Shown here in pieces: positions 10,159 to 62,792 of a DNA stretch of 64,000 nt. Origin of the DNA: Bacillus sp. ISL-37 (GTDB lineage Bacteria; Bacillota; Bacilli; Bacillales; Cytobacillaceae). Position 1 is the first letter of the stretch; each line of letters starts with the position of its first letter. Below the pieces are notes generated by a model. The model was not told where the DNA came from, searched no databases, and worked only from the letters and a program-made list of their open reading frames with translations. The DNA lies in contig NZ_JAGGQL010000004.1 of assembly GCF_018613315.1 (NCBI RefSeq), positions 85,897 to 149,896 of the forward strand, given 5' to 3'. The position numbers and the translations under genes were made by a program.

Positions 10159-10350
10159 TTTTGTTGGCGATTAATTGATGAATTAGTGGAGAGTTCTACG
10201 TATTACGTTAGTAATGAATGGCGAAGAATTGCTTTATTAGCGGAGTTCACAACTTTATTGGCGATTTTTTTATTTTATTGGCGATTTTGAAAATATTTTG
10301 GCGAAAATCAAATTTTATTGGCGGAGTTCACAATTTTATTGGCGAACTGG
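10159..10350. repeat. Cluster of short TTTATTGGCGA repeats
   Basis: About seven imperfect copies of a core ATTTTATTGGCGA lie between yuzD and yutJ (near 10159, 10230, 10253, 10273, 10292, 10310 and 10334). Two of them carry the same extension GCGGAGTTCACAA (near 10238 and 10321). Spacing is irregular (about 10-70 bp). The DNA is very AT-rich and any reading frame through it is low-complexity, so I do not call a gene here. Confidence 0.75.
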
Positions 10351-10430
10351 AAATTTTCATTGATTTTTACCAGTTTGAGACTCGAGAAATAACCACGATT
10401 CCAAATTTTCGAAGTTCTAAAATAAACAAT

Positions 10431-25883: not shown

Positions 25884-26306
25884 ATGGGCGAGGAGCAAAG
25901 CAAGCTGGTCAGCGAGGTCTTGCGTCAAAAGGATTACGTTCTAAATAAGAACAACGGCATAGGTTACGCGCCGATTCCGCACAATATCTATCGGAAGTTG
26001 TTGCCGCAACTAAAAGCGAAATACGACGGCCAGACAGCGCGTGATTGCCTGTTTCTATACGGATATTTCCAAGCGAATGTTAACGGTCAGAGCGAAGGCA
26101 GCGCGTATATGTGGGCGTTTCCTAACGTAGTCCAAATCGCAGAGGATACCGGCATTCATAAGGATCGCATAAAAGGGCTCGTTGATATTCTTGAAAGCGA
26201 AGGCCTGTTGGTATCGCGGAGGATTCCGTGGTATGGGCATACGAAGAAGATGTATATGCCGTTCTACATGCCAAGAAAGTTGCCCGATTCCTACGAGCGG
26301 GAATGA
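25884..26306 (+). CDS. Winged-helix replication-type protein
   Basis: 140 residues. IPHNIYRKLLPQLKAKYDGQTARDCLFLYGYFQANVN, then a winged helix NVVQIAEDTGIHKDRIKGLVDILESEGLLVSRRIPWYGHTKKMYMPFY. This resembles the N-terminal DNA-binding domain of phage and plasmid replication initiators (RepA_N/DnaD-like). The last codons overlap the first of three 24-bp iterons, and AT-rich DNA follows, which supports an origin-binding role. No helicase loader or polymerase gene is present, so host enzymes would be used. Confidence 0.6.
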   Translation: MGEEQSKLVSEVLRQKDYVLNKNNGIGYAPIPHNIYRKLLPQLKAKYDGQTARDCLFLYGYFQANVNGQSEGSAYMWAFPNVVQIAEDTGIHKDRIKGLVDILESEGLLVSRRIPWYGHTKKMYMPFYMPRKLPDSYERE

Positions 26307-26396
26307 ATCAATTCCTGTTAGCGGGAATCAATCAATTCCTATAAGCGGGAATATAATAATAACGAATTAATAACAACGAATTAATAAGAATAAACA
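26287..26396 (+). other. Candidate replication origin: three iterons plus AT-rich unwinding region
   Basis: ATTCCTNNNAGCGGGAAT occurs three times with a 24-bp period (26287, 26311 and 26335). Each copy is itself a weak inverted repeat (ATTCC/GGAAT). It is followed at 26353-26396 by almost pure A/T with AACGAATTAATAA twice. This layout, at the end of a winged-helix gene, matches theta-type plasmid and phage origins. Confidence 0.55.
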
Positions 26397-56814: not shown

Positions 56815-56929
56815 CAGAGGCGAGTATTTTACAATGTGATGAAGAAAGAAATTGCCTGCAATGTTAGGAAGTCGAAATATTTTAAGAGTTTCGATATAAT
56901 GAAGTTATAAATTTGTAGGGGTGAATGAT

Positions 56930-58438
56930 TTGTTTAAAGTGAATGATCAATTTAATTTTTCAAACAGCCATGATTGCCTGGTGATTGGCTTGTTCAACAA
57001 GCCGTCTGGTCTTGAAGGCTTCTTGGGGGAAGCCGATGAACTTTTTGATGGACAGCTAACGGAACTTGTTAAAAGCGGGGACATTTCAACTAAGAAAAAA
57101 GCAATTTCCAAAATACATACTTTCAGTAAAATTGGCGCAAAAAAGGTTTATTTTGTCGGCCTTGGCCATGAAAAGGAATATAATTTCGAAACATTAAGGG
57201 ATGCATTCGGCCGCTTGTTTAAGACGGCGAAGAATGAGAAGTGGACGGAAGCAGCCGTGCTTTTAGATACTTTTACAAGCGAAAAGGTTGAGCTTAATGA
57301 TGCGGCGCATGCATTAGGTGAAGCGTTACCGATGGCTACATATGAGTTCGAAGGCTACAAGCAAAAATCAAACGAGCCTGAAAAGCGAATCGAAACCCTG
57401 ACTGTATACAGCGCAGACGAAGAGGGAGAAGTGGAAGCAGCAGTTGAAGTTGGCTTTGTTTTCGGTAAGGGAACGAATTCGGCTCGTACGCTCGTGAATA
57501 CTCCAGGAAACCTTTTGACAGCTACAGACATGGCTGAATATGCGATGAAGCTGGCAGAGAAATATGAATTTGAAGCAGAAATTTTAGAAAAAGAAGAGAT
57601 GGAAAAGCTTGGCATGGGTGCGCTTCTTGCGGTCAATCAGGGATCTTCACAGCCGCCAAAAATGATCGTCCTGAAGTATCAGGGCAAGGAAGAGTGGAAG
57701 GATGTAATTGGCCTTGTCGGCAAGGGCATCACGTTTGATACAGGCGGATACTCAATCAAAACAAAGACTGGTATCGTCGGAATGAAGTCCGATATGGGCG
57801 GGGCGGCAGCGGTTCTTGGTGCAATGGAAATCATCGGTGAGCTGAAGCCCGAGCAAAACGTCGTAGCGGTTATTCCTTCAACAGACAATATGATCTCGGG
57901 CACAGCCTTCAAACCGGATGATGTCATCACATCAATGAGCGGCAAAACGATTGAAGTATTGAATACAGATGCAGAAGGACGACTCGTGCTTGCTGATGCA
58001 ATGACTTACGCGAAGCATCATGGTGCGAACTATCTAGTGGATATCGCAACCCTGACAGGCGGTGTCATTACTGCGTTAGGTCTGCATACATCCGGAGCAT
58101 TGACGAACAACGAAGAGTTCTTTGAACAAGTGCTGGAGGCTTCATATGAATCGGGAGAGCCAATCTGGCGCCTGCCATTGTTCGAGCGCGACATTGAACG
58201 TGTACGTGGCAGCAAAATCGCAGACCTGAATAATTCTCCAGGCGCAGAAGGCCATGCGATCATGGGCGGAGCGTTTGTCGGCGAATTTGCAGAAGGCACT
58301 CCATGGGTGCACCTCGACATCGCCGGAACAGCGACAGCAAGCAAAGAATACGACCTTGGCCCATCAGGCGCAACCGGCGTCATGGCCCGCACGTTGGCAT
58401 TGCTGGTCGAAAGATTTGAAACAGGAGATAAAGAATAA
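56930..58438 (+). CDS. pepA: Leucyl (cytosol) aminopeptidase, M17 family
   Basis: 502 residues; removes N-terminal residues from peptides with two metal ions. Metal and active-site residues: [17 protein letters not shown] (Lys and Asp), [11 protein letters not shown] (Asp), [13 protein letters not shown] (Asp, Glu, Arg). N-terminal macro-like domain about 1-150. TTG at 56930 is preferred, as AGGGGTGA lies 5-6 nt upstream; the GTG at 56921 is part of that site. Equivalent to B. subtilis yuiE/pepA. Confidence 0.95.
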
Positions 58439-58451
58439 ATTGAGCTTAGTT

Positions 58452-58482
58452 ACCCCAAAGTCACAGCGACTTTGGGGTTTTT
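58452..58482 (+). terminator. Terminator after pepA
   Basis: ACCCCAAAGTC (58452-58462) and GACTTTGGGGT (58468-58478), a perfect 11-bp stem, then TTTTT. Confidence 0.9.
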
Positions 58483-58520: not shown

Positions 58521-59664
58521 GTTCGGACAAATCATACTAGGTACAAGAGCATTTTGTCCGAAGGTGCCTCGTGTTCAGACAATTCCCGGTCGGTTCTTGG
58601 GGAATTTTTCCGAAGATGTGCTTGGTTTGGACAAATCACGATAGGTTCAAGGGAAATTTGTCCGAAGATGCCTCGTGTTCAGACAATTCCCGGTCGGTTC
58701 AAGGGGAATTTGTCTGAAGGTGTGCTTGGTTCGGACAAATCCCGGTCGGTTCAAGGGAAATTTGTCCGAAGGTGTGCTTGGTTCGGACAAATCACAATCG
58801 ATTCTAGGGGAATTTGTCCGAAGATGTGCTTGGTTCGGACAAATCACAATCGATTCTAGGGGAATTTGTCCGAAGCTGCCTCCTGTTCAGACAATTCCCA
58901 GTCGGTTCAAGGGGAATTTGTCCGAAGATGTGCTTGGTTCGGACAAATCACAATCGTTTTAAGGGAAATTTGTCCGAAGCTGCCTCCTGTTCAGATAAAT
59001 CCCAGTCGGTTCAAGGGAAATTTGTCTGAAGGTGTGCTTGGTTCGGACAATTCCCGGTCGGTTCAAGGGGAATTTGTCCGAAGGTGTGCTTGGTTCGGAC
59101 AAATCACAATCGTTTCTAGGGGAATTTGTCCGAAGCTGCCTCCTGTTCAGACAATTCCCAGTTGGTTCAAGGGGAATTTGTCCGAAGGTGTGCTTGGTTC
59201 GGACAAATCACAATCGTTTCTAGGGGAATTTGTCCGAAGATGCCTTGTGTTCAGACAATTCCCGGTCGGTTCAAGGGGAATTTGTCTGAAGGTGTGCTTG
59301 GTTCGGACAATTCCCGGTCGGTTCAAGGGAAATTTGTCCGAAGGTGTGCTTGGTTCGGACAAATCACAATCGTTTTAAGGGGAATTTGTCCGAAGGTGCC
59401 TCGTGTTCAGACAATTCCCGGTCGGTTCTTGGGGAATTTGTCCGAAGATGTGCTTGGTTCGGACAAATCACAATCGTTTTAAGGGAAATATGTCCGAAGG
59501 TGCCTCGTGTTCAGACAATTCCCGGTCGGTTCTTGGGGAATTTGTCCGAAGGTGCCTCGTGTTCAGACAATTCCCAGTCGGTTCAAGGGGAATTTGTCCG
59601 AAGCTGCCTCCTGTTCAGACAATTCCCAGTCGGTTTAAGGGAAATTTGTCCGAAGGTGCGCTTG
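58521..59664. repeat. Tandem array of 22 52-bp units, each an imperfect hairpin
   Basis: From 58521 to 59664 the DNA divides exactly into 22 units of 52 bp with no indels. Each has a left arm near TTCGGACAAAT (or TTCAGACAATTCCC), a 15-20 bp centre, a right arm ATTTGTCCGAA and a linker. Two linker types occur (GTGCTTG and CCTCNT). The array begins 39 bp after the pepA terminator. Long open frames exist in it only because few stop codons occur in the repeat; the 52-bp period would change the reading frame in each unit, so these are not genes. Confidence 0.93.
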
Positions 59665-59773: not shown

Positions 59774-59801
59774 TTGACACAAAAAACAAATCTATGATAA
59801 T
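59774..59801 (+). promoter_or_regulatory. Predicted sigma-A promoter of yuiF
   Basis: Perfect TTGACA (59774-59779), 16-bp spacer and GATAAT (59796-59801), 95 bp before the yuiF ATG and after the repeat array. Confidence 0.6.
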
Positions 59802-59895: not shown

Positions 59896-61209
59896 ATGAA
59901 TGCAGTTGTTATTGCTGTCCTGGCGATGCTGATCCTGAGCTTGCTTCGCGTCAATGTTGTGTTGGCATTGATTGCTGGAGCGCTGATTGGCGGGCTTACT
60001 GGCGGCTTGAGTATAGAGAAGACGATCGAGGTTTTCACAGGAGGACTTGGAGGCAGTGCCGAGGTCGCGCTTAGTTACGCGCTGCTTGGAGGATTCGCTG
60101 TTGCCATTTCCAAGACTGGCTTGCCCAATCTGATGGTTGACTGGATGATCGGAATGATTGGCAAGAACGGAGAGTCGAAAGCTAAGACGTATTCTAAAGC
60201 GATTATTGTCATTTTGATTTTAATGATGGCGGTTTTCTCGCAAAATTTGATTCCGATCCACATCGCGTTTATTCCGATTTTGATTCCGCCATTGTTGATT
60301 GTCCTCAACGAACTGAAAATTGACCGTCGCTTAATTGCTTCCGTATTGACATTCGGCCTTACCGCGCCTTATATTTTGCTTCCAGTTGGATTCGGCGGGA
60401 TTTTCCACGACATCCTGGCTACGAACATGGCTGACAGCGGAATGGAAATCGATATGCGGGATATCCCGACAGCGATGCTTCTGCCTGTTGCAGGCCTTGT
60501 TGTTGGCTTGTTGATCGCGATTTTCGTATCTTACCGGAAGCCTAGAACCTACGAGGATTATCAAGTGGTCCAGGTCGAGAAAAGTGAGTACTCCAAAGTT
60601 GGTATCATTTTCTCAATCGTAGCCATTGTTGCAGCGCTTGCTGCCCAGCTTTATTTCGGTTCAATGATTATCGGTGCATTGGCAGGGATCCTGGTCGTGT
60701 ACGTGAGCGGAGCGATCAAGTGGCGTGAAGCTGATAATCTTTTAACAGAAGGAATGAAGATGATGGCATTCATCGGATTCGTCATGCTAGCTGCTTTCGG
60801 TTTCGCTGACGTTCTTAAAGAAACTGGAGACGTTGAAACGCTTGTAGCGCAGGCAGCTGATGCAATTGGCAATAATAAAGCGCTTGGCGCGTTGGCAATG
60901 CTTGTTGTAGGACTCTTGGTCACAATGGGAATCGGTTCTTCATTCTCGACGATTCCGATCATTGCTACAATCTTTGTACCGCTAAGCCTTCAACTCGGGT
61001 TCAGCCCGATGGCGACGATTGCGATTGTAGGAACAGCTGCTGCACTTGGTGACGCGGGTTCACCTGCATCTGACAGCACACTAGGACCGACAGCCGGTTT
61101 GAATGCTGATACGCAGCACAACCACATTTGGGATACGGTTGTTCCGACATTCGTTCACTATAATATTCCGTTGATCATTTTCGGCTGGATCGCCGCTATG
61201 GTATTATAA
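59896..61209 (+). CDS. yuiF: YuiF, Na+/H+ antiporter family membrane protein
   Basis: 437 residues with about 11-12 transmembrane segments, of the NhaC-like/YuiF family of putative ion-coupled antiporters or amino-acid transporters. Characteristic stretches: [75 protein letters not shown] and [35 protein letters not shown]. The substrate is uncertain. GAGAGGAGC precedes ATG. Confidence 0.88.
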
Positions 61210-62589: not shown

Positions 62590-62792
62590 AAGTAGCTACC
62601 CCTTCCTTACGGGTAAGTTTTAGACCTTTTTCAATGTATGAACATAAATCCCTAAGTATGAGGGTGGGAAAAGCCAAAAGCAGTTCAATAAGGAAAAAAA
62701 GAGGGTAAATAAGGAAGAAGGGAGAATTGTTATACATATTAACTTCTATCGTGAAATAGAATCGGACCAAGGCGGATGAAGGGGGGAGAACC

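Follow-up and report, generated by a model that had tools for sequence, protein, structure and literature searches.

Tandem arrays of 52-bp units in Bacillus sp. ISL-37 as candidate DNA sites of a NERD-domain protein

The window, the whole 64,000-nucleotide stretch of Bacillus sp. ISL-37 DNA under study, carries a tandem array that belongs to a dispersed family. Arrays of this family have a fixed geometry and conserved arms, are linked to NERD-domain genes, and resemble one another where the adjoining NERD genes are similar. The window array probably represents dispersed cognate DNA sites of a NERD-domain protein, a reading to which a probability of roughly 0.65 can be given. The array class is already known, since constant 52-nt and 20-21-nt tandem repeats are described in Bacillus by Subirana and Messeguer 2021 (PMC8161180); what is new is the NERD protein as the likely partner, with a like array adjacent to its gene.

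The array and its surroundings comprise the following features:

56921..58438, + strand: upstream gene, an ORF of 505 aa (ORF call), which we take to be pepA, leucyl aminopeptidase-like, from recognition of its sequence.
58452..58478, + strand: terminator-like hairpin between pepA and the array (pattern scan).
58521..59664, + strand: tandem array whose 22 units all measure exactly 52 bp (direct reading and TRF).
58555..58581, + strand: 27-bp linker dyad TGTCYGAA-N11-TTCRGACA, the first in a series of 21 and the putative site of the NERD protein (sequence).
59595-59621, + strand: last of these linker dyads, which recur every 52 bp (21 cores chained in locus L001).
59647..59654, + strand: last right arm, at the array end, where the next left arm is not intact (sequence).
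59774-59801: promoter-like site about 110 bp past the array (pattern match 11 of 12).
59896..61209, + strand: downstream gene, an ORF of 437 aa (ORF call), presumably an NhaC-like antiporter, likewise named by recognition of its sequence.

Each unit consists of a left arm TTCRGACA, a 25-bp inner spacer, a right arm TGTCYGAA and an 11-bp linker. The left arm is mostly TTCGGACA, with a TTCAG variant in 10 of the 22 units and TTTGG in one, and the right arm is mostly TGTCCGAA, with a TCTGAA variant in 3 units. Direct reading and TRF, which also gives a period of 104, bear out the 22 units of exactly 52 bp reported in the initial annotation; the observation itself is confirmed and its interpretation is supported in part. 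The sequence variation, put there at up to a third, is real and larger, with pairwise differences reaching 21 of 52 positions (mean 9.7). The linker type does predict the next left arm, in 21/21 cases, which points to two interleaved unit subtypes and not to a breakpoint of amplification in the hairpin loop, as had been suggested. A compensatory change between the arms finds weak support at best: all three TCTGAA right arms are paired with TTCAG, yet 7 of the 10 TTCAG units keep TCCGAA (hypergeometric p = 0.078), and the other arrays show no arm compensation.

The geometry of the unit is common to the family. All 119 non-identical chains have a modal linker of 11 bp, and 118 of them have a modal inner spacing of 25 bp, the remaining one having 26; of the individual gaps, 1011/1078 inner ones measure exactly 25 and 1038/1064 linker ones exactly 11. 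Indels are not common in the other arrays, and this fixed spacing contrasts with the flanks of orthologous arrays, which carry 101 indels per 1505 substitutions. The proposal that spacing is under selection gains support from these figures, although constancy of unit length could arise from strong within-array homogenisation alone. The first 42 loci were collected by BLAST, whereas loci L043-L156 were picked from among the matches listed for at least one exact TGTCCGAA-N11-TTCGGACA, so that their arm and linker figures lean toward conservation; the 25-bp inner length is free of this ascertainment. At array ends a complete A-N25-B pair is present in 98/158 cases, in a test biased by the chain definition.

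Within the unit, conservation is concentrated in the arms. In 743 units from 76 arrays the arms differ at 0.023-0.024 changes per site, or about 0.012 without position 4, against 0.13 in the linkers and 0.11 in the inner spacers; position 4 aside, the rate in the arms is roughly a tenth of that in the rest of the unit. Position 4 itself varies at 0.10-0.11 per site, almost entirely by transitions, and the positions bordering the arms change at an intermediate rate. The 52-bp period is common to arrays with unrelated spacers, the sequence between the arms being nearly free. Comparison of unit consensus sequences within seven orthologous groups of arrays gave differences at 369/1116 non-arm and 16/496 arm positions; the pairs are non-independent, and the consensus building assumed 52-bp units, a period that TRF found independently in these arrays. 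Protein binding, one of the explanations first offered for the spacing, is supported in that the arms behave as sequence-specific half-sites would.

Search of the whole genome for the unit, as the initial annotation had advised, gave 23 BLAST matches and 195 exact TGTCYGAA-N11-TTCRGACA cores in the genome of origin (G000). Across genomes the window array has BLAST matches in 18/61, the genome of origin included, and the core pattern is present in 88/193 genomes of the family (reversed control 2/193). A three-half-site pattern occurs in 27/397 genomes of the order, the control giving 0. Among the matches listed, cores are found in Mesobacillus, Neobacillus, Cytobacillus, Evansella, Texcoconibacillus, Robertmurraya, Calidifontibacillus, B. 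methanolicus and others, and single core matches in distant phyla look like chance. The exact core has no match in 2 of 21 genus genomes. In the complete genome G018 all 25 fetched loci contain half-sites, 3-36 each, strictly alternating in 23. Best BLAST positions at first seemed confined, which raised the possibility of chromosome-domain sites, but 72 oriented G018 cores span 0.50-4.57 Mb. A phage origin was likewise set aside, viral contigs having given five stretches with a single match each, judged to be chance. Outside Bacillaceae-like hosts, type-1 cores occur in Alkalibacterium gilvum (L147 1644-1820; L086 1392-1420). In genome G019 an ORF (L040 2-707) that we take to be an IS256-like transposase lies 35 bp from a 24-core array.

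Individual arrays come and go. Arrays at orthologous sites can have recognisable spacers and orientation in common, and they persist across species. The pepA-nhaC gap was surveyed in 20 genus genomes (the downstream gene being unrecognised in G011): 3 have long arrays, 2 have remnants of 1-2 units and 15 have none, and the gap is array-free even in a relative with 97% pepA identity. From this survey and the spacers in common at orthologous sites it follows that arrays are inherited, grow, shrink and vanish.

Clustering of the proteins encoded beside the arrays revealed, in three genera, a NERD-domain gene that immediately precedes arrays. Relatives of this gene are present in 50/50 genomes searched, several copies lying at the ends of contigs with their 3' side facing out. 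Among 40 chosen NERD (PF08378) genes, 39 have an array of about 52 bp no more than 217 bp past the stop codon. A 51-53-bp array lies downstream of 20/20 NERD genes in the first set, from five genomes, at 10-217 bp past the stop codon; at L218 the nearest row has a period of 104 and the 52-bp row begins at 361, and the array of L222 has only 2.4 copies. The second set was drawn from other families, in genomes with few or no TTCGGACA arrays, and again 20/20 genes have an array, 19 of them at 12-102 bp and one at 1595 bp. Within 400 bp downstream, a 50-54-bp array is found for 40/41 NERD genes compared with 32/161 other ORFs of the NERD loci, and by our own reading 26 of these 32 ORFs point, from the opposite side, at the array of the NERD gene itself. 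Four NERD genes with internal stops (L247, L235, L239 and L210) still have downstream arrays.

The linkage extends beyond the close relatives, with other periods. A NERD match was obtained in 47/250 genomes of a class-wide sample, and the best locus of each was read for 30. At 40% identity or more, 13/13 genes have a 52-53-bp array 11-119 bp downstream, two of these genes having been in the earlier sets and two (L272 and L273) having short arrays of 2.2-2.5 copies. At 29-31% identity the arrays have a 41-bp period in 3/3 cases. The other 14 genes, at 22-29% identity, include 10 with downstream arrays of period 21, 31/62, 40-42 or 103 and 4 without a downstream array. Altogether a tandem repeat lies within 700 bp downstream of 26/30 genes and on either side of 29/30; the three genes with an upstream repeat only have periods of 46/93, 16/49 and 102, not all of them whole turns. 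Around 20 more distant NERD genes the repeat is found upstream in 16 and downstream in 6, within the same 700 bp, and 15 of the 16 upstream repeats include a 20-21- or 40-42-bp row, some of them weak. The background is lower: a period of this kind is found within 700 bp of 6 of the 65 window genes, and 9 of the 65 have a tandem repeat of any kind. A third size class, with a period of 41 bp, lies 95-170 bp past the NERD genes L282, L283 and L284, which belong to family f82 and have about 30% identity.

Within the genus, abundance of the core was compared with presence of the gene in a NERD search that took in all genomes but G004, G009 and G020. Unbroken NERD genes of at least 73% identity accompany 195 cores in the genome of origin, 215 in G003, 70 in G005, 107 in G006, 119 in G008, 170 in G010, 4 in G011, 311 in G012, 262 in G015 and 135 in G019. 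A copy with one flagged stop is present in G013 (306 cores) and a broken one in G002 (154 cores). No NERD gene at 73% identity or more is listed for G001, G007, G014, G016, G017 and G018, which have 17, 0, 0, 234, 9 and 79 cores. Kinship being ignored, the trend fits with the exception of G016 and G011. In G016 the arms are well kept (0.40 mismatches per 16 positions), yet the type-1 NERD gene was not found there, and the arm decay predicted after loss of the gene is not seen in the pair compared (1.19 in G018 without the gene, 1.26 in G008 with it).

The sequences of arrays also follow those of their NERD proteins. The longest array word in common averages 9.4 bp for NERD pairs of at least 60% identity (102 pairs), 7.2 bp at 50-60% and about 6.4 bp below 50%. 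At 55% identity or more (80 pairs) the word averages 8.55, compared with a maximum of 7.71 in 200 permutations. Such likeness in close relatives is not proof of recognition, because a gene and its adjacent array are inherited together. NERD genes from several families of the order are accompanied by arrays with TTCGGAC-type arms and differing spacers. For 43 NERD-linked arrays the best common anatomy is a 27-bp dyad scoring 6.49 of 8 outer pairs; the 41-bp alternative, at 6.42 of 8, represents the arms of the same dyad viewed the other way. Single NERD-linked arrays vary, several lacking a significant dyad (11-5-11). A second array type, TTGACAG...CTGTCACAA, is linked to another NERD gene and is dispersed in 6/6 genomes, with 12 places in G018.

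All eight proteins tested pass the Pfam cut-off for NERD (PF08378). Residues E42, D74, K89 and Q117 and four cysteines are invariant in 39/39 copies without an internal stop, and residue 87 is D or E in the alignment shown. D74, K89 and residue 87 would correspond to a PD-(D/E)XK active site, and the invariant residues fit a nuclease site. The AlphaFold model of the protein is poor (mean pLDDT 50.9) and a PDB search by sequence gave no significant match. Another candidate for the array-binding protein, SpoIIID, was considered on the basis of its consensus. It was dropped because the invariant TTC misfits this consensus and an array also occurs in Alkalibacterium gilvum (L147), which is not known as a spore former.

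In the proposed mechanism each 52-bp unit would comprise a 27-bp imperfect dyad and a 25-bp spacer. A protein combining a NERD domain and a zinc ribbon would read the dyad; it may bind as a dimer and may act as a nuclease. With a 52-bp pitch, or five helical turns, each dyad would face the same side of the double helix as the one before it. One array stands directly behind the NERD gene, and like copies occupy intergenic gaps elsewhere, mostly 3' of genes. The nuclease-like NERD protein may help to make or spread the arrays, as has been proposed for RAYT proteins with REPs, and such a RAYT/REP-like role would be the first choice for the function of the NERD-array pair.

The arrays might instead serve as nucleoid-organising or insulating platforms between transcription units, with NERD a resident architectural protein that has ceased to cut or move DNA. 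The general form of this idea is put forward in PMC8161180, and the five-turn pitch and the persistence of orthologous arrays across species agree with it, as does the genomic setting. Most arrays lie in the gap that separates the end of one gene from its neighbour: the 71 arrays with both neighbours called stand between 50 co-directional, 17 convergent and 4 divergent gene pairs, orientations that come from a simple ORF script and count some sites twice (e.g., L031 and L058). Many also lie beyond a terminator, a strict terminator-like hairpin being present in 32/73 gaps with a gene pointing at the array (shuffles 0.3) and in 1/43 with a gene pointing away. Single arrays are nonetheless dispensable, as the 15 of 20 array-free pepA-nhaC gaps attest, the exact core is absent from two genus genomes, and the G018 map has no macrodomain pattern, which together make the architectural role unlikely.

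Somewhat less probable still is that the arrays are transcribed as small RNAs or sponges, with NERD acting as an RNA-processing nuclease on the array located 3' in its own mRNA. Some NERD-linked arrays begin 10-20 bp past the stop codon, too close for a terminator to fit in between, some (L211) have perfect 11-bp stems, and PMC8161180 reports transcription of the 52-nt repeats in B. coagulans. RNA pairing, also raised in the initial annotation, was examined by compensation and wobble, and both came out unsupportive of an RNA hairpin as the functional form. In the dispersed arrays, compensation at arm position 4 is absent, with 9 cases across the inner spacer against 11.3 expected and 17 across the linker against 15.8 expected. 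G-U mismatches show no clear excess over A-C when arrays are oriented by the linker (142 vs 128) or by neighbouring transcription (95 vs 77, some sites being counted twice). On the NERD sense strand more arrays favour G-U than A-C (22 vs 13), but the totals (264 vs 253) show no overall excess. The dispersed arrays are without strand bias, and mismatches without strand preference are as expected of double-stranded DNA sites. Inner-edge positions beyond the arms pair above chance (z of about 2.5-3 at three), a signal confounded by clade and mixed strand orientation. Rfam gives 0 matches at the gathering threshold within the window, the exact spacer and linker lengths would be unexpected for loops, and the terminator-like hairpins that precede the array in 32/73 gaps also speak against an RNA function. 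A neutral minisatellite formed by slippage and gene conversion, which NERD genes merely tend to adjoin, would account for the freely varying copy number, the many sites without arrays and the two interleaved subtypes of the window array, but is very improbable given conserved arms between free spacers, an equal period in arrays of unrelated spacer sequence, and NERD linkage far above the background of 6/65 window genes.

The reading of the arrays as NERD-protein sites can be widened, at about even odds, to the NERD proteins of Bacilli in general. These would form a family of array-binding and probably array-making nucleases, each group with its own dyad or word, and would set a repeat length of whole turns, the lengths of 20-21, 31, 41-42 and 52 bp corresponding to 2, 3, 4 and 5 helical turns. 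They would be the partners of both constant-size repeat classes, and dispersed members of both published classes are contained in the window, the second of them being:

10233..10362, strand not assigned: second array, 20/21-bp period, unit TTTATTGGCG (TRF).

An array of this family also lies upstream of a distant NERD gene in the genome of origin (L300), and the word CGCCAATAA recurs at 20-21-bp steps both there and in L302 of G018, likewise upstream of a distant NERD gene. A two-unit pattern of the 20/21-bp array is present in 20/21 genus genomes (control 0). The assignment of periods to NERD groups is weakened by the small number of distant NERD genes, taken without a tree, and since one genus has both 42- and 31-bp arrays (L285 and L286), the setting of the period by the NERD group is only a reading. 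Elsewhere in the window TRF finds two short tandem repeats at 26287-26387, one with a 24-bp period (2.8 copies) and one with a 14-bp period (2.7 copies), and a 21-bp tandem duplication (2.0 copies) at 62676-62716.

The arrays agree with the repeats of PMC8161180 in a constant 51-53-nt period with variable sequence, in several families per genome with patchy distribution, and in short conserved words present with their reverse in each unit, here the TTCRGACA and TGTCYGAA arms. The paper proposes nucleoid or small-RNA roles for constant-size repeats, names no partner protein and states that evidence for the action of a Cas-like protein on them is lacking; its main text contains none of the words "NERD", "nuclease" and "hairpin". 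The present account differs in that it links the arrays to NERD genes and specifies a 27-bp dyad. Searches of the NERD literature found no link to tandem repeats in titles or abstract openings, searches for the arm words or 52-bp repeat terms gave nothing relevant by title, and judged from these titles and abstract openings and the text of PMC8161180 the NERD-array link was not found in print.

Like CRISPR, the arrays combine a partly palindromic 27-bp repeat and a 25-bp spacer beside a gene for a nuclease-domain protein. Unlike CRISPR, which has unique spacers between near-identical repeats, they have spacers that are near-copies within an array (0.113 differences per site from consensus), and the "repeat" varies as well.

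The closest parallel is the RAYT/REP-BIME system, in which, according to Nunvar et al. 2010 (PMC2817692), the gene of a DNA-processing protein is flanked by cognate palindromic repeats, gene and repeat show matching likeness, and many copies are dispersed between genes. RAYTs are Y1 (HUH) transposases, to which NERD is unrelated by Pfam, and the arrays considered here are tandem with a whole-turn period. Membership by homology is ruled out, Y1_Tnp (PF01797) being absent from two array-rich genomes, that of origin (195 cores) and G015 (262 cores). Repeats do lie beside a protein gene with matching sequence, the protein being NERD, so that the system works like RAYT/REP without being a member of it. 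With one protein family adjoining the arrays, matching their sequence and perhaps setting their period, the question of their function becomes directly testable. If the reading is right, NERD proteins would be sequence-specific DNA-binding proteins with many natural specificities, and the whole-turn length of such repeats would have a reason. The NERD genes and their arrays would then constitute a protein-plus-repeat genetic system of a new kind, parallel to RAYT/REP and unrelated to it by homology.
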